From NCBI GenBank assembly GCA_009760855.2, contig WPIO01000038.1, positions 2,132,501 through 2,196,500 on the forward strand: a stretch of 64,000 bases of DNA, in the 5' to 3' direction. The position numbers and the translations under genes were made by a program. Below, one piece after another: positions 3,179 through 59,500 of the stretch (positions are counted from its first letter, which is position 1; every line of letters begins with the position of its first letter). Origin of the DNA: Cristatella mucedo (taxonomy: Eukaryota > Bryozoa > Phylactolaemata > Cristatellidae). A model generated the notes under the pieces. The model was not told the origin of the DNA and ran no database searches. It was given only the letters and a program-made list of their open reading frames with translations.

Positions 3179-3615
3179 GGACTCGCCAGCCCCCTATATT
3201 TTGCAGTTTTCTTTTGAATAGTTTAGGACTCTCTTTCGTGAGCCAAGATACTCAGTCTGTAGCCACCGATAAAAGTAACCCCACTGGCAGTAAAAGTTAC
3301 GCACATCTGCACCGGCTAGCAGCTGTACAGGAAATGGGAGGGGCTGCTACGACTTGACCTCACTAGTTTCGGTTAATGGGGTCGCTGTTTGTCTGTTGGC
3401 GAGTAACGTTAGCAGCCTAGTATTAATTTCCGTTGGCGGTGGGTGTCCGAGTGCAGCTCTAGGGGAAGGTTACCTTGGAAAGGTAAGTTTTACGAGTGTA
3501 GTGCCTCTCATTCATTGCATTACCATTGTGCCATGCCCCTCGTTACCTAATCGCGATGGTGCCTGATCGACTTTTCTAAGCCGCGTCTTCTCCGTTTTTT
3601 AAGAGTCACGCGACA

Positions 3616-4136
3616 ATGGCTGCATCTGCAATACGACTAATGGTTGACGAGATCATTGCGTCAAAGAAAGTTGTCGTGTTTTCCAAGACGTACTGCACTT
3701 ACTGCGCGAAAGTCAAGCAGCTGCTGACGACGTACAACATCCCGACAACTGACTACGCAGAAGTTGAGCTCGACAGAGACCATGCCAGCGACTGTGATGC
3801 CATCCAAGACTATCTAGCGGAGAAAACGGGCGCGAGATCGGTGAGGCTCCTCTCAATGCCAGTGCTCGTCTGTCTGAGCAGCCCGGTGCCTGTGTGCATG
3901 AAGGAGCATGCAGCACCCTGGAGGCCCCGATGGGCTCGAGGTTGCTGACTTCGTAGCACGTCGTTTTCTTTCGCGCCTTTCGCCACTACTGGCTTTTTTC
4001 CCGCAAAGCGACTGCATTTCTAACCAGCTTGTTGGTACTTTAGGTGCCCCGAGTGTTCATTAAAGGAGCAAGTGTCGGTGGTTGTGACGATACTACGGCA
4101 CTGCATAACCGAGGAGCTCTCAAGAGCATGATATAG
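3616..4136 (+). CDS. GLRX: Glutaredoxin, cytosolic-type, two exons
   Basis: Exons 3616-3840 (75 codons) and 4044-4136 (30 codons plus TAG) are joined in phase 0 across a 203-base GTGAGG…TTTAG intron, giving 105 residues, a normal length for a dithiol glutaredoxin. This enzyme uses glutathione to reduce protein disulfides and glutathionylated proteins. Visible motifs are the redox centre CTYC at residues 27-30, the cis-proline loop VPRVF at the start of exon 2, and the glutathione-binding GGCDDT near residue 90. The phrases IQDYL and TGAR-VPRVF match animal GLRX rather than monothiol glutaredoxins. The ATG follows a short GC-rich leader and no targeting peptide precedes it, so I infer a cytosolic protein. 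The C-terminus is about ten residues shorter than in vertebrates. A tandem paralogue lies 3 kb downstream on the same strand. CTYC, in place of the common CPYC, is unusual. Confidence 0.93.
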
Positions 4137-6032: not shown

Positions 6033-7168
6033 GGTGTTGCTTTATTAATTGGTAGCCTAGCAGCAGCCGTTTTGAAAGATGCAGGGACAAGACCTGAGGC
6101 CAAGGGCATATTTACTGTGTCAGTAATGCATGGCAGCAGCAGCAGATCTATGCATCAAATAAGTCGGACAGTGGTAATAGGGTCTAGAGCACTAGTTGCC
6201 TTTTTGACTGGGAGAGGAATTTCAGGACGAGGTCACTTGTAGCTGCCTTGAATGCACATACAGACGTGCTGCACGGAATTGAGGGAGGAGTCCTGAAGTT
6301 ATGTTACTGAGGGACGGGAATCAAGTTGGGATGCTGTTTCCTCAGGGATAGACTCTCTGATCTTGTCTATCTTTCTAGAGAGACTGTCGGCCATGTCGTG
6401 GTCGTAATTGCCACAAACGCACCGGAAATGTTTATTATCTGAGGTCCTGCTGCATTATGACTGCGCAGTGAACGCCGGTGGTCCCAGAGAGCATTAGTAG
6501 CAGGTTGTCGACTGAGCGACTCGGGTGGCACGGACGCTATTTAGTTTTACCTAGTTTGAGGGCCACGATTACCAAATAAGCAGAACTTTCGGCTTCCATC
6601 GGGTACTGCCAGAATTCGCTACAATACTACAAGGCCGCGGCTTGCAGGCGCTAGCCATTATTTGCAAACATTTGGGTTTCGATCTTTCGGCTGTAAGACT
6701 GTAGCCGCACGGTTCAATTGGATCATCTGTTTGCTTTAGTTATTGCCAGCTTCCCGCTGCGTCAACGTCCGCTCCATCACGCCCCTCTCGTAGTTTTCGG
6801 TCAGCTCGAGACGAGCTACACCATTCAGTTGCAGAAATTTCCTTCAAGTAAACGTGCTCTGAGTTGCGACGACATCAGGCGGCCTGCTAGCCGCTGTCGT
6901 TAGGGCTGCTGCAGGCGGGCGTGAAATAGCCGGAAACTGCTACAACCCAAAATCGGCCTCTACCTCCGCTGGTAGGTCGCCTCGAGGCTGAGCGTCCGCA
7001 GCCACGAAACGATTCCTGGCGGCGGCGGCGGCGGTGGCTGTCGAGTGCAAGTCGTAAGAAAGATTTTTTCATAGCCAGGTCTGGTCTGGTTGTCAACACA
7101 CGCCGAGCCGGTTCTCGGCCGTAGCCGTCCGCCGACGTCCGGAGCCTTTCCGGTGTCGGCCGCGCGTG
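6033..7168. other. Intergenic region upstream of second glutaredoxin
   Basis: No exon is recognised. The last 280 bases, from about 6890, become GC-rich with several CpGs and a (GGC)n stretch near 7020. This probably covers the promoter and 5' untranslated region of the second glutaredoxin. Confidence 0.4.
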
Positions 7169-9129
7169 ATGGTGCTGCGTCGGCTGTTCGCTGCTGCAGC
7201 CGCTATGTTTGTCGGGCGTCAGCCGACGATGGACAAATCGGCCGTGCGAAGATTCGTGGATGACGCTATCGCGTCCAAGAAAGTTGTCGTCTTTTCGAAG
7301 ACCACGTGCCCGTACTGCACGCAAGTCAAGCGACTACTGAAGACGTACGGCATCGCGCCCGGCGACTACGCGGAGATTGAGCTCGACCTAGACTACTCCG
7401 CCGACTGCAGCGCCATTCAAGACTACCTGGCTCAGAAAACTGGTGCGAGGACGGTGAGTGAGTGGTCAGCCAGCGGTGCCCGCCGGGAGCTCTCAGTGGA
7501 GCTGCTGAGCGCTCGCCTCGCCCACGTGTACCCGCCCTTAGGTCGGTCGTTCGAATACGAATCTAGATACGATCGCATGTGTTACAAAAGGAAATGTCAG
7601 CTGATTCAACAGCCTCGCAGCAGCAGCAGCGGACGAGCCCTTTAGCAGGTTTGCCCCTGCTTGCCGCCGAGGACAATAGCGAATTTCCAGCTACAGGAAC
7701 TCACGACCCGGGTTCGTGAAGGGCAAGCACCTGTCCACTCGACGAATCCCAGGGGCAGTAGCGATGCAGCGACATAGCAAAGGCCGGGCAAGCGGAGCCT
7801 GGCTCGCGTAGCGCCAACCGAGCACTCGCGGCCATCCCTTTCGCTGCCGATCTATCAGGTTTGTCGCGGGAATTTGCAATGCCCCGCGAGTAGGAGCGAT
7901 GAATTTGACGGCTGAACCCATATTACGAGCGATAAGCTGGCCGCTGAATTAGAACCGAGCGCTTACGAAATAGCCGCGATAAGCAGCCCAGGCCTATGAG
8001 CAGGGCGACGTAAGATCGTGTGCGATTATTTTCTGACGCATCACCTGATTGCTGTATAAGGCATGGGCCTGACTGCAAGTCACTCTCTTGGAGCAGCCGA
8101 ATGCTGGTCGGCGAATCGTAGCACTGAATGAGAGCTCCTGTAAGCCTGCCGTATCAGCAATAATGCTTAGCCTAGTGTTTGTGCTTTTTCCACTACACTG
8201 TTCTTGCTAGCTCTGTTTGCAGAATATCGTGCTGTGTTGTCATTTCGTCGGCGTATTGCTAGCTTTAGGGCTTTATATATTCCAGGCATTGTGCAGCTAT
8301 CCGAACTAGTGAGGGTTTCGAAGTCATTAAAGGTTGAACCCGAGCTTGAGGTGCCGAGGGCAAGCCTGCTAACGACAGCCTCCCCCATTAATCTGACGAG
8401 GATACTGTTCTCAGCCGTTTCGTTATGCGTCTATGCGTGGTTTCAACTGCTTTACAAGTAATATCAGACTAGTGTCTTCCAGCTGTCTGACTTTGTCAAA
8501 GCAGTTCCCTCGCTGTGTCTTAGCCCAGGGGAAAGGTTCTTGCTCTTCACCACCCAGATCATGGGCTCGAGTCCTGCAGTGGGTGATTCTTTATTGCCTA
8601 CTGCTAGTAGTGGCGATAGCCGTCAAAGCTCTTCTGTCGCTATGCAAATGGGTTTGCTAATTTAGCTAAGATTTGTTTCTCTACCCGAATGAGCAAATCT
8701 TATGATCTGTGAAACATACCATGTTTTTAAGAGATGCCACGAAGGGAGGCACCGATGGCCAATTGCCGATGCCAAGGTGTTCTAGAAGATGGGATTTTTT
8801 GTCGTCTTTCTCTGTGCAAATCTGTTATTTCTTAATGTTGCCATGCTGTCACGGTTGCACTGTAAACCACTTGTGATGACCACTGGTAGGCTCTGTTGTG
8901 CTGTGCTGTGCATTTGGCTTGCTTCAGGGGGTTTATAGTCGGCCGGATTGTCGCCATCTGTGTTGGAAGGATGTCTCACAGGTCGTTTTGCTGCAGGGTT
9001 GCTTTTGTTCTCAGCTGCTCGTTAAATCTGTAGGTGCCCCGAGTGTTTATTAAAGGCATCAGTGTGGGTGGATGTGATGACACGACTGCACTGCACAGCC
9101 GAGGTGCTCTCAAGAGCATGCTATCGTGA
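7169..9129 (+). CDS. GLRX: Glutaredoxin with probable mitochondrial leader, two exons
   Basis: Exons 7169-7453 (95 codons) and 9034-9129 (31 codons plus TGA) join in phase 0 across a 1,580-base GTGAGT…TGTAG intron, giving 126 residues. The redox centre is CPYC at residues 47-50, the cis-proline motif VPRVF starts exon 2, and GGCDDT binds glutathione. Compared with the upstream paralogue there are about 20 extra N-terminal residues (MVLRRLF, an alanine run, MFVGRQ). This arginine/alanine-rich, acid-free segment resembles a mitochondrial presequence. The next in-frame ATGs (7205 and near 7229) would make shorter, cytosolic forms, so dual targeting from alternative starts is possible. The intron position is identical in both paralogues and the exon 2 DNA sequences are close, which shows tandem gene duplication rather than retrocopying. 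The sequence motifs are nearer animal GLRX than GLRX2 despite the leader. Confidence 0.92.
8515..8665 (+). mobile_element. SINE-2 (tRNA-derived) inside glutaredoxin intron
   Basis: The body 'gggctcgagtcctgcagtgggtgattctttattgcc…gccgtcaaagctcttctgtcgctatgcaaa' matches the other SINE-2 copies (11,509; 12,917; 24,885). The head is decayed. It lies in the single intron of the second glutaredoxin gene, in sense orientation. Confidence 0.65.
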
Positions 9130-11670: not shown

Positions 11671-12916
11671 GCTAGTAGTATTGTAGTTATTGCGTGCAAG
11701 TCTGGTTAGTGGCAGCATGCACAGTGTCAGCACACATAAAACACATAAAGGACGAACCACAGGGATCCACTAAATGCTGTGATACACAGGTGCTGTTTTA
11801 GTTTCTTTTTATATGTGGTCAAGTCAGGAGATGTTGTGACGCAAGTTTGGATTGAGCTCCAGTCTTTGGGGGCATATGAACTAAATGCACGATCTCCAAA
11901 GGATTTGATGTTTTTGTACAAGGTATAGGTAAATAGATTCCGAAAAGCAGGTATTATGATGCTTAGCCTGTGGTGGCGGAGTAAATCTGATAGGTAGGCT
12001 GGAGCCAAAGAATGAAGTGACCTAAAAGTGAGCGACGAAACCTTGAAGTATTGCGTTGCTTGAGCGCTAGCCGGTGCAGGTCGGCGAGAAGTAATGGATG
12101 TAGCAACTCACGATATCACCAGCCTAGCTACGGAGTTGTGCACCACCTGTAAGCCCCTGATTACATAGGCCGGTAGACCAGCAAGCAGTGAGTTGCAGAT
12201 GTCAAGACGGGATGTCGCAAATGCATGGACCAATTTAGATTCGGTACCCTTATCTAAACAAGCCCGAATTTTAGCAATGTTGTGTAGCTGAAAGGAGGCA
12301 GACTTGAATGTGGAGCTGATGCTGCCGTCTAACGAAATGTCACTTTTGAACATGACACCTAGATTTCGTGCAGATTCAACAGGACATATACTGGCAGAGC
12401 TGATTGTGAGCTATAAGCTTTCCAATTTCTGAATCACACTTGGTTTGCCCATAACTAGTAAATTGGTTGTCTCTTCATTCAATTTAAGAAAGTTTGTTGC
12501 CATCCACGTGCAGATGTCATCAATACATGCAGCAAGTGAGTTGAGAAAATTCGATGCGATTGAGGGCTGGAGAAGAGATCAAAGGCAATGTACAGCTGAG
12601 TGTCATTTGCATAGAAGTGAAAGCCTAGATTGTGCTTGGCAATCTCATCGGCAAAAGGCAGAGTGTAGACAGTAAAAATAGCGGGACCAAGCACCGAGCC
12701 CTGAGGTGTGCCATACTTCAGAGGTTGCCCGGATGGCTTTTTCCATTCATGTCAATACTCTGGAGTCTCCCACTGAAATATGACCTGAACCATTGCAGAG
12801 CAGTGCCAGTGATGCCCAGGCGAGATGAGAGGCACGAGAAGGAGTTGGTGATCAGTAGTATCAAAAGCTGCCCAAAGATCGAGCAAAGCAAGCAGATATA
12901 CTCTACCTAAGCCTGC

Positions 12917-15118: not shown

Positions 15119-15690
15119 TTGAACTGTTGCTTTGATCCCTACCAGCCTTCGAGCAAGTCGAATTCTCTCAACTCCTTAGCTGCATGTATTAATGACATCC
15201 GCGCATGGATGGCAGAACATTTTCTTAGATTAAATGACGATAAAAATAACTTACCGGTTATGGGCAAACCCAGTGTGATTCAGAAATTGGAAAGGCTGAC
15301 GCTCAATGTGGGCTCTGCCAATCATTTGGAGACCGTGCATTTAGTTCGCATGCTCCCAAAGCCTGAAACTCACTCCCGACTTGCGTCACGACATCTCCTG
15401 ATTTGACCACATTTAAAAAGAACTTCAAAACGTACCTATTTATGGCAGCATTTAGTGGATCCCTGTAATTCGTCCTTTATGGGCTCACGCGTGCTGACAC
15501 TGTGCATGCTGCCACTTACCACACTTGCATGCTGACCCTGTGCTTGTCACCAATAACCATTATTCATGTTCATAAAGCATGATACCATTCACCACTCGAT
15601 CGTGTTTCCTTTGCAGTAAATGTAAAGCGCCTATAAAGATATTGAGTTCTCTGAGGGCGCTTTATCAAGTGTATTATTATTATTAAGTGA
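15119..15690 (+). mobile_element. LINE-A copy with internal deletion, sense
   Basis: The first part encodes CINDIRAWMAEHFLRLNDDK, the L2-type segment after the YADD box. Near 15,322 it jumps to the C-terminal segment (TSPDLTTFKKNFKTY) and runs on to the hairpin 'gcgcctataaagatattgagttctctgagggcgc' and an ATT tail. Several hundred bases between these parts are missing relative to the copy at 11,365. Confidence 0.75.
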
Positions 15691-18728: not shown

Positions 18729-21700
18729 ATGGATGGCGACGTGCTGCGCCGACACGAAGGCTTGAGTCTATTTCTAGAATGCCTCCAGCAAGACCTCATA
18801 GCAAGCGAACTATATTGGAGCCTTTTTTTGACCGCGGCGTTTCACTACAAAGTGGATTCGTTACTGCGGCCCTTTCCTTCGGCGTTCGTGAGCGGAGGCG
18901 GCGAGAAAGACGTCGTCGCTTTGGTAAGCAGTGCTTCTCGAGTCTGAGACTCGATGCAATCTCGCAGGGCATGCTCAGCTATTCCTATTTGCATTAGTTG
19001 ACAGCCGCATCCATCTTCGTTATGAATCTGCGAGTAGTTAGATCGTGGTTGAGTAGAATTCGCGAAGCTCCGGGCTTGCTCGCTCGGAGATTTCAGCAGT
19101 TTCCGTCGATATGTCGCGAAGACCGTCAGGGGCTGCCGTTCTTGTTGCCTCTTGCGCTATTTTCTGACGAATCATTCCTCGAATGTCTGTGGCTCCGGAT
19201 GAATGGGGGCGCCGTCTGCTCTCTGTCAACCGTAGTCGGGTGCATCGGCTTGGAAGTGCACCCACGGGCCTTTTCAGCCTCCTGAGGCGTCGAGGCTCCC
19301 AGTTTCCCAGTACGTCGGTACCTGGGTTTCGTTCGCTCAAAATATAGCGTCGGTTTTGGCGCATTTTCTGGTTGCGGCCGAGGTGCGAGAGCGCGTCTTC
19401 TCTGTGACGGCATCAGCAGCAGTTAGAAGATAATAATAATAATAATAATAATTCACTTGATAAAGCGCCCTGAGTGAACTCAATCTCTCTCTAGGCGCTT
19501 TACATTTGCTGCAAAGTCAAATGCAATTGAATGGTAAGTAAAATCATGCTTAAAAACAAACAAAATGAATGATATGGTTAGGGGTGACATGCACAGGGTC
19601 AGCATGCAAATGTGGTTAGTGGCAGCATGCACGGTGTCAGCACGCATAAGAACATCAAGGACGAATCACAGGGACCCACTAAATGCTGTCCTAAATAGGT
19701 GTGTTTTTAAGTTTCTTTTAAATGTGGTCAGGTCAGGGGATGTTCTGACGCAGGTCGGGAGGGAGTTCCAGGCTTTGGGAGCATACGAGCTAAATGCACG
19801 GTCTCCAAAGGATTTAAGGTTTGTGATAGCATGCAGTCTCACGTGCGCCGTTGCTGCCTGTGCGCTCGCTCTCGGCTGGCCACACGCTCTGGCAGTGCAG
19901 ACGGGCTCTGCACGCACTCTATTCTGCCACCTCTGCCAGCCGGCTGCGCCAGCTTGCGCTGCCTCGCGGTCTGCCCGAGAGCAGCTGGCCGCGTGCACAC
20001 GTGCATCGCGCTCCGCCTCTTACCAGCGGCAGGTGTGCGGCGGGGTCCCGAGCTTCGGCGAAGTGCTGGCGTCGCGCTGCTCTGCGCTCACGGACGAGCA
20101 GGCTGCACTGCTCAGCTGGCTGTTCAGCGGTGGCCGACAATGGTCGCTCGCGTCGCGCAATCCTGGCGATAAGGTATGGGCAGCAGGTCGCACGCGGCGC
20201 GTTGCTGCCCGCTCTGCTGCGCCCCACCATGACCCACGCCGAGTTGGGCGGCGGCGGCTGCTTGCTCTGAATCGTGGGCGGATTGCTGGGCGCCGGCTTG
20301 CTGCGCCGGAGCCGCGTCGCTTGCTGCCAGCTGAGCGCGGCGGCCGCCGCTGCCGTCGGGCCCAGGTCGCCGAGCTCCGTCGGCTCACGGGCGAGGCGCT
20401 CCCGGCGCGCTGTCCGAGCCACCTGTTCGAGCTCGTCTACGGCGCCGGGCCGGAAGAGAGGTTCGAGCGGCTGCGAGGCGGCCGGCCGCTGCTGCACGCC
20501 TACCACGGCAGCCGCGCCGAGAACTTCTACTCGATCCTCAAGAACGGCCTTCAGTCGCACATGAACAAGGTAATTGGTTGCGGGGACGAACGCCTGCAGG
20601 TGTTGCCTCGCGTGCGTCGCGTCCTCTGCCGACCATGGCCGCCGCTGCCACCGATCCGCTCACGCTGCTGCTGCTGCTGCTGCCGCTTCTGCCACGCGGT
20701 CGCTGCGCGGTTGTTGACTCACGATCCCTCCTCCTCGGGCTCCCGTTGCTACAGACGTCGCTGTTCGGCGAGGGCACCTACTTGACCAGCGAGCTTGCCG
20801 TCGCTATGGAGTTCAGCCCGCTAGTGCCCGTGCAAGCCTGTGGCTCGCTCGGCGGCGATCGCCGCCATGGTGACCGCGGCGGCAGCAGCGGCTGTGGCCG
20901 GCTGAGCGTGGTGGCTCTGTGTGAGCTCGTTGACGATGCGAGCATCAAGTGCGACCGTCGCCACTGCACGCGCGGTAGGGACCAGCGGCTGCGGCTGATG
21001 AGAGCCGTGAGAGGTCGCGCCCTCGAGGTCGCGCATGCATGACGACCGCCGTCTGTTTCACCGTCTGCGCGAGCCACCGCGTGTGGCATGCTCGGGACTG
21101 TGCCAGCTGGGTGCCGCTCACGGCTAAGGCTTCGCTGCCTCGTTCGCAGGTCAGGACGATGGCGTCGGCGCCGGGGGTGGCCGAAGGGCGTCGGGCCGTG
21201 CGCCGAACAGCCAGGCCGGCGATGTGCCGGAAAAGTACTACGTGGCCACGAACAACGAGATGGTGCGCGTCAAGTATCTGCTCGTGTACGCGTCGCCCGG
21301 CGGCGGCGACAGTGCGCCGCAGCCGACTGCGGGCCATGCCACAGCGTAAGTGCTGCACAGCAGCTTGCGCCGTGACAGCGGATCAAAACTAGAGTGACAT
21401 CAGTTGTTGAGGAGATGGTATTGTAAATGTCGCCGGTTGGGATGAGTGAGGTTTTTGCCATCTAGATCGTGCACTTTCAGTGCGTCAGTTATCTGTGAAA
21501 GCATTCAAGGAGCACGAAAAAAAAGCGTTTTCCCGTTCGGCGCCACATGCCGGCCTCTAGCCAGAACAGGTCAGGGGCAGAAGTGTCGGAGCCCCATTGG
21601 TGACTTCCTGTCTCGACAGCTGTCTTTTCAGAGAGGGCCCAATCATTCAGCGTTTTTGCTGGATCTCCAACGCTCGGGTCAGTCCTCCATATCTTGCGAG

Positions 21701-27705: not shown

Positions 27706-34193
<6,488 letters not shown>

Positions 34194-44989: not shown

Positions 44990-45705
44990 GTGTGACTCAA
45001 TAATAAAAATAATAGTCCACTGGATAAAGCGCCCTCAGAGAACTCAATCTCTTGCTAGGTGCTTTACATTTGCTGCAAAGGAAACGCGATCTAATGGTGA
45101 GTGGTATCATGCTTGAAAAACAACAAGAATAACATGGTTAGGGGTGACATGCACAGGGTCAGCATGTAAATGTGAATAGTGGCAGCATATAACAGTGTCG
45201 GCGCACCTAAGCACGTACATGACGAATCACAGGAACTCACTCAATGCTGTCATATATAGGTCCTTTTTCATATTTCTGTTTAAATGCGGTCAAGTCAGGG
45301 GACGTCGTGACGCAAGTCGGGACCGAGTTCCAGGCTTTGGGAGCATACGAACTAAATGCACGGTCTCCAAAAGATTTGAGGTTTGTACGAGGTATAAGTA
45401 AACAGTTAGATTCCGAAAAGCGGGTGCTACGATGCTTAGCTTGTTGGGGCAGTAGATCTGATAGGTCGGCTGGAGCCAAAGAATGAAGGGACCTAAAAGT
45501 TAGTGACCAAATCTTGAATTCGATGCATTGCTTGACTGGGAGCCAATGCAGGTCGGCGAGAAGTGGTGTGATATGACAACTGCAACGCTCACGACAAACG
45601 AGCCTAGCTGCAGAGTTTTGCACCAGCTGTATGCGCCTGATTGAACAGGCCGGTAGACCAGCAAGCAATGAGTTACAGAAGCCAAGATGGGACGTCACAA
45701 AAGGA
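44990..45705 (-). mobile_element. LINE-A 3' region, antisense
   Basis: The A/T-rich tail and inverted hairpin lie at 44,995-45,070. The minus-strand frame 45,698-45,237 then carries SHLGFCNSLLAGLPACSIR, VQNSAARLVCRERCSCH, LHWLPVKQCIEFK and KSFGDRAFSSYAPKAWN, in correct order. This is about 150 codons without a stop, a relatively young copy. Confidence 0.9.
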
Positions 45706-47952: not shown

Positions 47953-48732
<780 letters not shown>

Positions 48733-48922
48733 CAACGGTTCTCAACTTGTAGGTCTCGACCCCTTTGGGGGTCGAAGAACACCTTTCGCAAGGGTCGCAT
48801 AAAACCATATTATTGGCCGGGTTACGTTTATTGGCCGTTTAATTTAAAGGTTGTGGGTCGCCACAACATGACGAACTGTGTGTATTAAAGGGTCGCTGCA
48901 TAGGGATGGTTGAGAACCACTG
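48733..48922. mobile_element. Non-autonomous hAT element (MITE), SPIN-like
   Basis: The left end reads caacggttctcaactt and the right end, reverse-complemented, cagtggttctcaacca. These are terminal inverted repeats differing at a few positions. The outer bases are flanked by ctcttgag (48725-48732) and ctcttaag (48923-48930), an 8-base target duplication with one mismatch, the size made by hAT transposases. Inside the left end, 'cgacccctttgggggtcgaa' and inside the right end 'gtcgccacaacatgacgaac' and 'attaaagggtcgc' strongly resemble my memory of the ends of the SPIN family. There is no coding capacity in 190 bases. Confidence 0.8.
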
Positions 48923-48939
48923 CTCTTAAGAGTAGATCA

Positions 48940-50389: not shown

Positions 50390-51275
50390 TAATAATAATA
50401 ATAATACATTTTTATAGCACTCTCAGAGATCTTAATCTCTTTCTAGGCACTTTACATATGCTGCAAGGAAAGTATGATCGAACGGCCAGTAGTAGCATGC
50501 TCAATGTCAACAAGCATAACATTGTTAGGGGTGACATGCAATAGGTCAGCATGCAAATGTGGTTTAGCGGCAGTTTTCAGTGTGAGCAATCACAACACAC
50601 GAAGGATAAATCAGATGAGCCCGCTAAATATTGTGACAAATAGATGCGTTTTCAGAGTCTTTTTAAATGTCAAGTTAGGGAATGTCGTGACGTCCATCGG
50701 GAGCGAGTTCCAGGCTTTGGAAGCATGCGCACTAAAGGCACGGTCTCCAAAAAATTTGAGGTTCGTACGAGGTGTAGCCACACGATTTGATTCAGAAAAC
50801 CGGGTGGTACGATATCTAGCGTGGTGGAGTAGATCTGATTGGTAGGCTAGGGCCAAAGAATGAAGAGACCTAAAAGTTAGTGACAGAACTTTTAAGTCGA
50901 TGCACTGCCTGAAAGGGAGTCAGAGCAGGAAGAGGTGTGATGCGGCCACTAAAACTCTCACGACAGACAAGCCTAGTTGCAGAGTTTTGAACTAAATATA
51001 AGTTCCTGTTTGCACAGGCCGGTTGACCAGTAAGCAGTGAGTTAAAGAAGTCGAGACGGGATGTCCCAAATGAGTGGACCAATTTAGATTTAGTATCCCT
51101 GCCTAAGCATGCCCAAATTACAGCCATGTTAGGCAGCTGAAAGTAGGCAGACTTGACTGTGGAGCTGATGTATTCGTCTAATGAAAGGTCACTTGGAACC
51201 GAACACCTACATTTCGTGCAGATTCAACAGGAAATATGCTGGCAGAGTCAATTTTGAGAGTGGGAAACTCTGGAT
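50390..51275 (-). mobile_element. LINE-A 3' region, antisense, long copy
   Basis: The (AAT)n tail starts at 50,390, then the inverted hairpin, then minus-strand frames with KFFGDRAFSAHASKAWN and SRLDFFNSLLTGQPAC. On the plus strand 'cacctacatttcgtgcagattcaacagg' matches 12,358 in the longest copy. Confidence 0.8.
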
Positions 51276-52804: not shown

Positions 52805-53125
52805 CTAACAATAATAAATATAATAACCTTAATATTAGTAACACTTGATAAGTCGCCCTCGAAATAACGCAATCTCTTTCTAGGCGCTTTATATATGTCG
52901 CAAAGGAAGCACAATAAATGCTAACAACAAGAATAGCAGCAAGAATAATATGGTTCGAGTGACATGCACAGGGTTGGCATGCAAGTGTGGCTAGTGGCAG
53001 CATGCGTAGCGTCAGTTTCGTAGCTCACAAGCTCATTAAGGTTGATTCACGTGGACCCACTAAATGCAATGATAAATATGTGCGTTTTTTATTTCTTTTT
53101 AAATATGGTCAAGGAAGGGGAAATA
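52805..53125 (-). mobile_element. LINE-A 3' end, antisense
   Basis: 'cacttgataagtcgccctcgaaataacgcaatctctttctaggcgctttatat', 'ggttcgagtgacatgcacaggg' and 'gtggacccactaaatgcaatgataaatatgtg' align with the copies at 19,430 and 56,705. Confidence 0.75.
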
Positions 53126-56500: not shown

Positions 56501-59500
56501 TCAGTCCGTTCGGTCAACGACTAAATAATTGAACCATCATGCAGATTCGTTAACATTACATCCGCGAGGGTAATCGTGGTGGAAAGGTCTGTCACCACCA
56601 GCCACACTTCCTCATAATTGAGCCGTAACTGCACTTGACTCTACTTCTCTAATCTCTTCTTCCTCTCGTTAAAGATACTCTAGGGGAGGCCACCATATTG
56701 CGCTATAATAATAATAGTAATAATAATAATGCACTTGATAAAGCGCCCTTAGAGAACTCATCTCTCTCTAGGCGCTTTACATGGGCTGCAAAGGGAAATG
56801 CAATTGAATGGTGAGTAATACCATGCTTGATAAACAAACAAAATGAATAACATGGTTAGGGGTGACATGCACAGGGTCAGCACGCATAAGCACATGAAGG
56901 ACGAATCATAGAGACCCACTAAATGCTGTCCTAAATAAGTGTGTTTTTAAGTTCTTTTTAAATGTGGTCAGGTCAGGGGATGTTCTGACGCAGGTCGGGA
57001 GGGAGTTCCAGGCTTTGATAGCTATATCTTTTCTGTGGAGCCATTGTGACTATCTCAATGACCTGGCGTCTCTTTCTTGTAGATTTTGCATCGAGTAGGT
57101 ATTTTTTTTTTATACCAAATGAATTCCGTGCTCGTCTGCAATAACTTTTGGACTCTATTTTCTACCAGTGCATAACTTCAACTATTGTTTTGTTAATAGC
57201 ACTATGCCAATAATCATTAAGCATTATCTGAGTCCTATTCATTTCAGCTTTGCAGCCATCAACCATGGATGCGACTGGAGATACAATTTAAAAGATAATG
57301 CATGCAAAGCATTCTCGTTGAAATTACCCTGTATAAATAGCCTCGCTTGAAACGTGGTGGATTACTTTTTGCTCGATTGTTCATTGGGCCTCAACAGAAT
57401 GTCATTAATTAAAACATACTCAAGAGCTACATAAAGATGCATACATACAGCCGAGAGATAAATTAATCAAGGCGGCCATAATAATCAGGGTAGAAAGCCG
57501 AATTGATGCGTGAGACGAAGCTTGTTGGCTACCGAATGCGTACCGAAAGCCGCTTAGGCTGTGAGTGCGCTCTACAAAACTCTCCTGCGTGTAACACCCA
57601 CATGGTCTTTATGACTTTGTGGAGTTACAGACGGAGATACATACATAGCACCTCGCTTTATAAATTTCCTCTGAGCCGTCGTGAGTCATTAGGTCACAGT
57701 GCCTCTCTAGCGTACTTGCTTATCTTTTTTTCACGAAACCGTTAAGTTAGAAGAGTTCTAAGCACTAAATACTAAGCAAAGAGAATATGAAGAAGCTCTA
57801 GATTCATGCCTTTCCAAAATTTAGAACGAAACGTCTATTTCAGTATTATCTCAAGGAAGCTTCGTTATGAAATGTGATATAAAGATTGAGTGGTTCAGAA
57901 AGCAGCTAAGCCAAATCGTATGAGACGTATTGAAGAAGCCTGCCTAAAGAAGAGTGTTTTTAGAATAGCTCACAAGCAAGTGACTTATCTAATCTTGATG
58001 GGCTTAATCTGGTAAGTTCAGTCACCCACAGGATAATCAAGGTTGCACTGGCTTAGCTACTAACCAGTTTAAGCCAAAATGAATGTCAGATTTGAGATTA
58101 GGAAAACGTAATGCACCAGCTTTGCCAGTGCTAAGATTCACTTATGTCGATAGGGCTTCTTTCATCCAAATGCAATGATTTAGTTTCATTGAGAAATTTG
58201 ACCCCCACGCGAATGTATTTGTGTGCTATCATGGAAATTTGGAAATCGTATATCATATAATCCTCTTCTTTGACTGAAAATTAAAAAAAATCCTCCGCCC
58301 CAGCTTGGATGCGCATGCAGTAGTTAACAGACCTCAACTGACGCAATGACGAGACATTGTAGAAGCAATGCAGAGTCAGGAGGGCAGTAAAAGAAGTGTG
58401 GAGCAGTGGAGAGCATGGAAATAGCTGCTCAGGATGGCTGGAAAAGTATGTGTGCCACAGTCGGCATCAGGATAGCAGATATCGTTTCCTAAGAATTTCA
58501 AAAGTGAGTTCCACATCTGATAAGCAAACATTTCTGACACCAACAGTCTTAAAGAAGAGGAGTGAAGCAGCTAATATGTTGTCAATAGAGGATCTGAGGG
58601 CACGAGAAGGCTGAAACTGGTTAAGCAGTTCAGCTTTAGTTTGTATAGCAATCAAAGTGAACAAATTATACATTCAAGCATTTAACCATTTCTTCTAGTG
58701 AAGCGCAAACTAGGGATTGATGATAATTATGGTATTGTGCTCAGCTGAGCGTACAAAGTCACTTAGGATTGTGCTCTTTGCTACTGCTTAATTAAGAAAT
58801 TGGTTTATTGCCGTAGCTTGAGATGTTTTCGCAAGAATGAGCTCGAAAAAATAAATGAAAACAAGATTCTATTTACTTTTTCTTGATGGTAAAATCAAGG
58901 AAAGCTCGTCCGTTTTCCCTGTAAAACTTGTGTATCTCAAGCATAGCTATCGCAAAAAAAGTTTTGATTTTAGAAAATGTATTAGTTACTATTTGCGTTA
59001 AAAGCCTTGCGGACTTGAGTTGGCCATCGAATCTAGCTGATACTTTGAACCGTATATATTCCCAGTGAAGTGAAATATGGTCTCTCAACCAGTCTTAGGA
59101 TTTTGTAAGTATACATTCACTACAAAGCATGCATATAAATATATTAAAACATTTAAAAAGCTACGCTTGTATTTGAAGTTTAAGGTTTTGTGTTGAAGCT
59201 ACCCTCGTGGACTTACACGAGGGTAGGTACCACAGCAAAAGCCACACTTTCTATAGATAGACATTGAAGTAATAGCTGCTGCCTCTTTTTCTGCCAAGAG
59301 CTCACTACTTTCTTGCAACTGAAAGGAGTCACTGAACCCCCGGAAATATGAGGAAAAGATGCTTTAAATTATGCTTAGGTGATAAAGAGTGGGTGCTGAT
59401 GACCTTTCAACACAAACCGCACTATCGGTTAGCATGGTCACAAACCATAAGGTAAAGTGAGATAACTTGAGTATCGAGGGTAACCTAGCGGGCCCAACAA

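Follow-up and report, generated by a model that had tools for sequence, protein, structure and literature searches.

A decayed miniature hAT transposon with SPIN-like ends, dispersed in the genome of a probable lophotrochozoan

The SPIN (SPACE INVADERS) elements, which include non-autonomous forms in tetrapods such as murine SPIN_NA, are a standard case of transposon jumps between distant animals, and few invertebrate hosts are on record, with Lymnaea among them. They are placed in the Buster branch of the hAT transposons, for which the target consensus is nnnTAnnn, and are characterized by an 8-bp target duplication and inverted ends of the form CAGYGGTTCTCAACC. The classification is not uniform, as SPIN is classed under hAT-Charlie in the part of PMC4054807 that names it. 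In the snail Biomphalaria glabrata, a hAT element with significant identity to SPIN is present at about 1,000 copies, and the DNA transposons of this genome are described as not recent, with intact transposase undetected (relevant sections of PMC5440852). The bug Rhodnius prolixus contains SPIN_NA_12_RP and SPIN_NA_13_RP, which are ascribed to horizontal transfer from tetrapods, and fewer than five SPIN copies lie in its piRNA clusters (passages of PMC11614815). SPIN or SPIN-like elements in invertebrates are therefore already on record, as far as these sections go, and what is probably new here is a further host; a literature search, outside which the main SPIN papers (2008, 2010, 2012) fall, brought no invertebrate SPIN hosts to notice beyond Biomphalaria and Rhodnius. 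Buster elements have about 106 bp of terminal similarity in common, and Buster1 carries TGGGTCGCG subterminal repeats (excerpts of PMC4298943), so that some similarity between ends is expected without recent transfer.

The window, a stretch of 64,000 nucleotides of genomic DNA, contains an element (Table 1) that is very probably an old, decayed DNA transposon, miniature and non-autonomous, from the SPIN group of hAT. At only 190 bp it has no room for a transposase gene. The window copy starts with CAACGGTTCTCAACT and ends with the reverse complement of CAGTGGTTCTCAACC, and these ends correspond to the inverted pair that heads the list for this region (17 nt, 88% complementary, 162 nt apart), which includes three nucleotides of flank. 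A sequence-only reading of the region had proposed terminal repeats, and they stand as inverted ends that agree at 12 of the first 15 bases in the window copy and at 14 of 15 in either consensus, but some of the letters it quoted are private to the window copy (e.g. CAACGG, which is CAGCGG in the consensus). The 5′ block includes the palindrome CGACCCCTTTGGGGGTCG and GGTCG-type subterminal motifs, while the core, which is of the GGCCGGGTTACG-type subfamily, contains two TTATTGGCCG direct repeats (48810–48819 and 48828–48837). The copy is mismatched with its consensus at 10.8% of sites. As single-stranded DNA it folds better than 200 of 200 shuffled sequences (z −4.4), as expected from the inverted ends and internal palindrome. 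Elsewhere in the window, two neighbouring open frames (3580–3945 and 7058–7642) both have glutaredoxin domains.

Table 1. Positions of the element, its parts and the related repeats (window coordinates unless loci are named).
Feature	Position	Strand	Remarks
Left target-site duplication, ctcttgag	48725..48732	+	7/8 identical to right copy; family target profile nTCTAGAn
Non-autonomous hAT (probably SPIN-type) element, 190 bp, subfamily A	48733..48922	+	
5′ terminal inverted repeat, consensus CAGCGGTTCTCAACC	48733..48747	+	
5′ block	48733..48808	+	in consensus common to both subfamilies and provisional SPIN
Subfamily-A core	48809..48839	+	borders approximate; absent from subfamily B and provisional SPIN
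3′ block	48840..48922	+	in consensus common to both subfamilies and provisional SPIN; printed mouse DNA matches its consensus
3′ terminal inverted repeat, CAGTGGTTCTCAACC on minus strand	48908..48922	-	
Right target-site duplication, ctcttaag	48923..48930	+	
Dispersed repeat stretches	11692-11876, 15350-15549, 19585-19785, 30182-30336		
Dispersed repeat stretches	45145-45347, 50532-50726, 52960-53124, 56852-57017		
Two Buster-like transposase families	L096-L098, L100, L105, L107-L111 and L094, L112-L114		

The element is one of many copies in the 572 Mb assembly searched (688 contigs). With the window copy as query there are 40 scored matches (itself included) at 74–100% identity, drawn from 1551 first-look candidates, and with a subfamily-B consensus there are 41 from 2336, of which 40 are at 94–96% and one at 85%; these first-look counts are not verified copy numbers. 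The subfamily-B query was made by hand, and majority rule on its 30 copies gave an identical consensus, an agreement that is partly circular, as the query itself had picked these copies. Flanking DNA was sampled for the window copy, 20 of the 39 others found with it and 30 of the 41 found with the consensus, and removal of three of these 51 sequences as duplicate places (L065, L080 and L083) left 48 distinct copies, which are the best-scoring ones and therefore biased in age. An exact 23-mer of the 3′ block has 0 matches in the viral_contigs and genome_contigs collections, and a distant search with the 187-bp consensus gave no match among phages or plasmids.

The flanks of these copies bear the marks of insertion. 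An 8-base target duplication had been proposed for the window copy and is upheld both there (ctcttgag/ctcttaag, 7/8) and in the family, where 37 of 48 copies have flanking 8-mers that agree at six or more positions, 31 at seven or more and 11 at all eight, compared with 9.5%, 1.6% and 0.1% when left and right flanks are taken from different copies; 11 of the 48 copies are without a clear duplication. The 37 copies with one have the target profile nTCTAGAn (33 have T at position 4, and 33 have A at position 5), which matches the nnnTAnnn target of the Buster branch. Empty sites are found for 10 of the 48 insertions (two of them weak): when the flanks are joined and one duplication is taken out, they align over the junction with a repeat from another place in the fetched DNA. 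The alignments are at 80–85% over 169–200 bases for five insertions (L019, L020, L028, L071 and L081; the L019 flanks match window positions 15549–15350 at 84.5% over 200 bases) and at 78–80% over 84–162 bases for three (L073, L074 and L084), while L085 and L092 reach no more than 72% and 67%. The fetched DNA contained no empty site for the window copy.

That the element is no transposon, but a palindrome arisen by chance or a host repeat spread by segmental duplication, is scarcely credible in view of the target duplications and empty sites. The one point in favour is that two copies, L016 and L018, have flanks in common (92.7% over 301 bases on one side, 86.6% over 97 on the second side), as if a single insertion had been duplicated together with its surroundings. 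Several other copies also have flanking repeat sequence in common, but its position or orientation differs, which fits insertion into a frequent repeat. The window element is thus confirmed as a member of a dispersed family that transposed. The dispersed repeat that provides the empty site of some SPIN-type insertions, mainly L019, has at least eight matching stretches in the window (Table 1).

The reference for comparison of the ends was a provisional murine SPIN_NA sequence that stands in for a curated entry, and the SPIN label is therefore provisional. The subfamily-B consensus agrees with it at 85/85 positions at the 5′ end and 80/81 at the 3′ end (165/166), and the majority consensus of the 16 subfamily-A copies at 75/75 and 74/75. 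Inverted ends of the SPIN form CAGYGGTTCTCAACC are present, and the middle of the element differs from that of the provisional SPIN_NA. The inner blocks had been proposed to match both ends of SPIN, and this is sustained by the provisional sequence and, for the excerpts available, by printed murine DNA; rather than being confined to the generic terminal motif of many hAT families, the common stretch spans 75–85 bp of 5′ sequence and about 80 bp of 3′ sequence.

Since a provisional reference is no test of SPIN identity, printed rodent DNA was sought. A literature search with 23–33-base strings of the element returned no paper, and shorter strings led to rodent sequences, which are thus selected, although the matches reach past the strings searched. 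The shorter strings also drew another mouse Ate1 study, work on bacteria and shrimp, and papers hit through a single 12-base string; the sequences used come from rodent studies that contain the more specific strings. Passages of five papers print sequences that match the consensus: two primers for mouse Ate1 (PMC2767504) and one each for mouse Elmod1 (PMC10259482), rat NONRATT000845 (PMC5739704) and mouse Kcnq1ot1 (PMC6221546), together with a mouse FDH gene-targeting sequence (PMC8376875). The primers, as printed, match at 18/20 (one base of which falls outside the element), 18/20, 17/20, 20/22 and 19/20 positions, whereas 300 shuffles of each reach at most 15 matching bases. The mouse 3′-end stretch, as given in the passage of PMC8376875, matches at 59/69 up to the element end, over a longer stretch than the terminal repeat. 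The consensus positions matched by these printed murine sequences are 1–19, 56–75, 58–77, 60–81, 60–79 and 119–187. The passages concerned carry no SPIN label.

Murine rodents carry SPIN, and the printed stretches are presumably SPIN. Sequence of SPIN type past the inverted repeat is accordingly present at both ends, given that the references are presumed to be SPIN. Invertebrate and rodent lineages split more than 500 million years ago, and non-coding ends that are nearly identical in an invertebrate and in rodents suggest that the element may have been passed between widely separated animals and not down a line of descent. A related hAT MITE of Buster or Charlie type, other than SPIN, with ends conserved through very long vertical descent is an unlikely explanation. 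It draws on the terminal similarity and TGGGTCGCG repeats described, in the excerpts at hand, for Buster elements (PMC4298943), but agreement at 165/166 with provisional SPIN and at 85–95% with the murine DNA in the printed passages is too close for so long a separation, and two Buster-like families resident in the same genome have different ends with no significant match to the consensus.

These resident families were sought as controls because of the about 106 bp reported for Buster elements. For an autonomous partner, a search with PF05699 (the hAT dimerisation domain) gave 138 matches from the best 150 of 766 candidates, of which 55 have one score (76.8 bits) and constitute a young hAT family (e.g. 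L034, L040 and L043), presumably Ac-type. Sixteen of the 55 lie in open frames of 635–642 aa, and the family is possibly still active. Neither SPIN-type sequence nor a further SPIN-type copy is present in the 30 loci (L029–L058, ~97 kb) read around it. With a Buster-like transposase fragment (L096) as query there are 152 matches from the best 150 of 745 candidates; about two thirds of the matches listed come from one decayed family, and the others, at 40–43% identity, from a better preserved second family with longer open frames, e.g. 563 aa without a stop (C645:1541652). The 3′ ends, read for four copies of the first family and three of the second, are ...GTTTGCCCACCCCTG-like and ...GGTTGGACACCCCTG, such that on the opposite strand the families end in CAGGGGTGGGCAAAC and CAGGGGTGTCCAACC. 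With the SPIN-type consensus as BLASTN query, the first set yields no match (E up to 1) and the second no more than a 23-bp stretch (E 0.18), which argues that end similarity of the degree seen with SPIN is not general among Buster-like elements here. Both families were also rejected as the source of the SPIN-type copies because the terminal repeats differ in the copies read. Among the PF05699 matches and hAT loci examined there was neither an autonomous SPIN copy nor a gene for SPIN transposase.

The SPIN-type copies fall into two subfamilies, A (16 of 48, including the window copy) and B (32 of 48), with identical consensus ends and a difference confined to a core of about 30 bp. The A copies lie at a mean K2P distance of 10.0% from the consensus and the B copies at 5.1%, although the A copies all derive from the window-copy query while the consensus query supplied 27 of the 32 B copies, so that the difference in age is suggestive only. 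In a tree of the 48 copies and two consensus sequences 88% of the length is in the tips, a pattern of bursts followed by independent decay. Consensus CpG positions are changed in 11.6% of cells and other positions in 5.6%. A plausible course of events is that a SPIN transposase entered an ancestor of the host by horizontal transfer, and would have bound the inverted ends and GGTCG-type subterminal motifs in trans, excised the element and reinserted it at other places; derivatives that had lost internal sequence, with two or more different cores, would then have multiplied and subsequently decayed neutrally.

The host itself is probably a lophotrochozoan. Its mitochondrial COX1 gene (contig C688) needs TGA to be read as tryptophan and has AGA/AGG at positions of serine type and AAA at those of lysine, which is the invertebrate mitochondrial code, so that the host is an invertebrate. 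The mitochondrial genes include a nad1-nad6-cytb-nad4L-nad4-nad5 block, presumably a lophotrochozoan-type order, and the host is possibly a mollusc. C688 (L062, L063 and L115), a mitochondrial contig of 21 kb, has genes on both strands, and its segment from nad1 to nad3 (about 10.6–14.9 kb) contains repeats at 2115-base spacing, one of them with a partial nad3. A COX1 match with six TGA codons lies far inside another contig (C166:4375626-4376390, L060) and is likely a nuclear copy of mitochondrial DNA. Contamination of the assembly by vertebrate DNA, as a source of the SPIN-type copies, is extremely improbable and found no supporting point: the copies lie within multi-megabase contigs (e.g. 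C111, beyond 16 Mb) and interrupt repeats present elsewhere in the host genome, and the two cores are not in the provisional murine form.

The sequence-only reading of a SPIN-like hAT MITE is thus largely supported by a multi-copy family with target duplications and SPIN-type ends, and other copies with 8-base duplications, the absence of which would have counted against it, are found genome-wide. That SPIN invaded a lophotrochozoan lineage other than the freshwater snails on record, independently of them, and in separate waves formed two or more miniature subfamilies specific to this host, is a tentative extension that may well be wrong. If true, the reach of the SPIN wave extends to another invertebrate phylum or class. 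Each added invertebrate host helps to trace the carrying routes (parasites, predators or shared habitat), and many copies in two subfamilies would permit dating of the invasion and comparison with host ecology.

Among the known systems, Buster1 and Buster2 are, like the family described here, hAT elements with non-autonomous forms, and Buster1 has TGGGTCGCG-type subterminal repeats; their inverted ends, however, are CAGGGCTTCTTAAAC and CAGGGGTGGCCAACCT in the excerpts of PMC4298943, whereas those of the element are CAGCGGTTCTCAACC. The SPIN-like hAT of Biomphalaria glabrata is likewise in a lophotrochozoan and the SPIN elements of Rhodnius prolixus likewise in an invertebrate, both compared by their published descriptions, in part, and not by sequence. 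Murine SPIN_NA, in its provisional sequence, differs in having another core, a longer middle and a host that is not an invertebrate, but has in common with the element the CAGCGGTTCTCAACC ends, the 8-bp duplication, 85 bp of 5′ sequence and about 80 bp of 3′ sequence.
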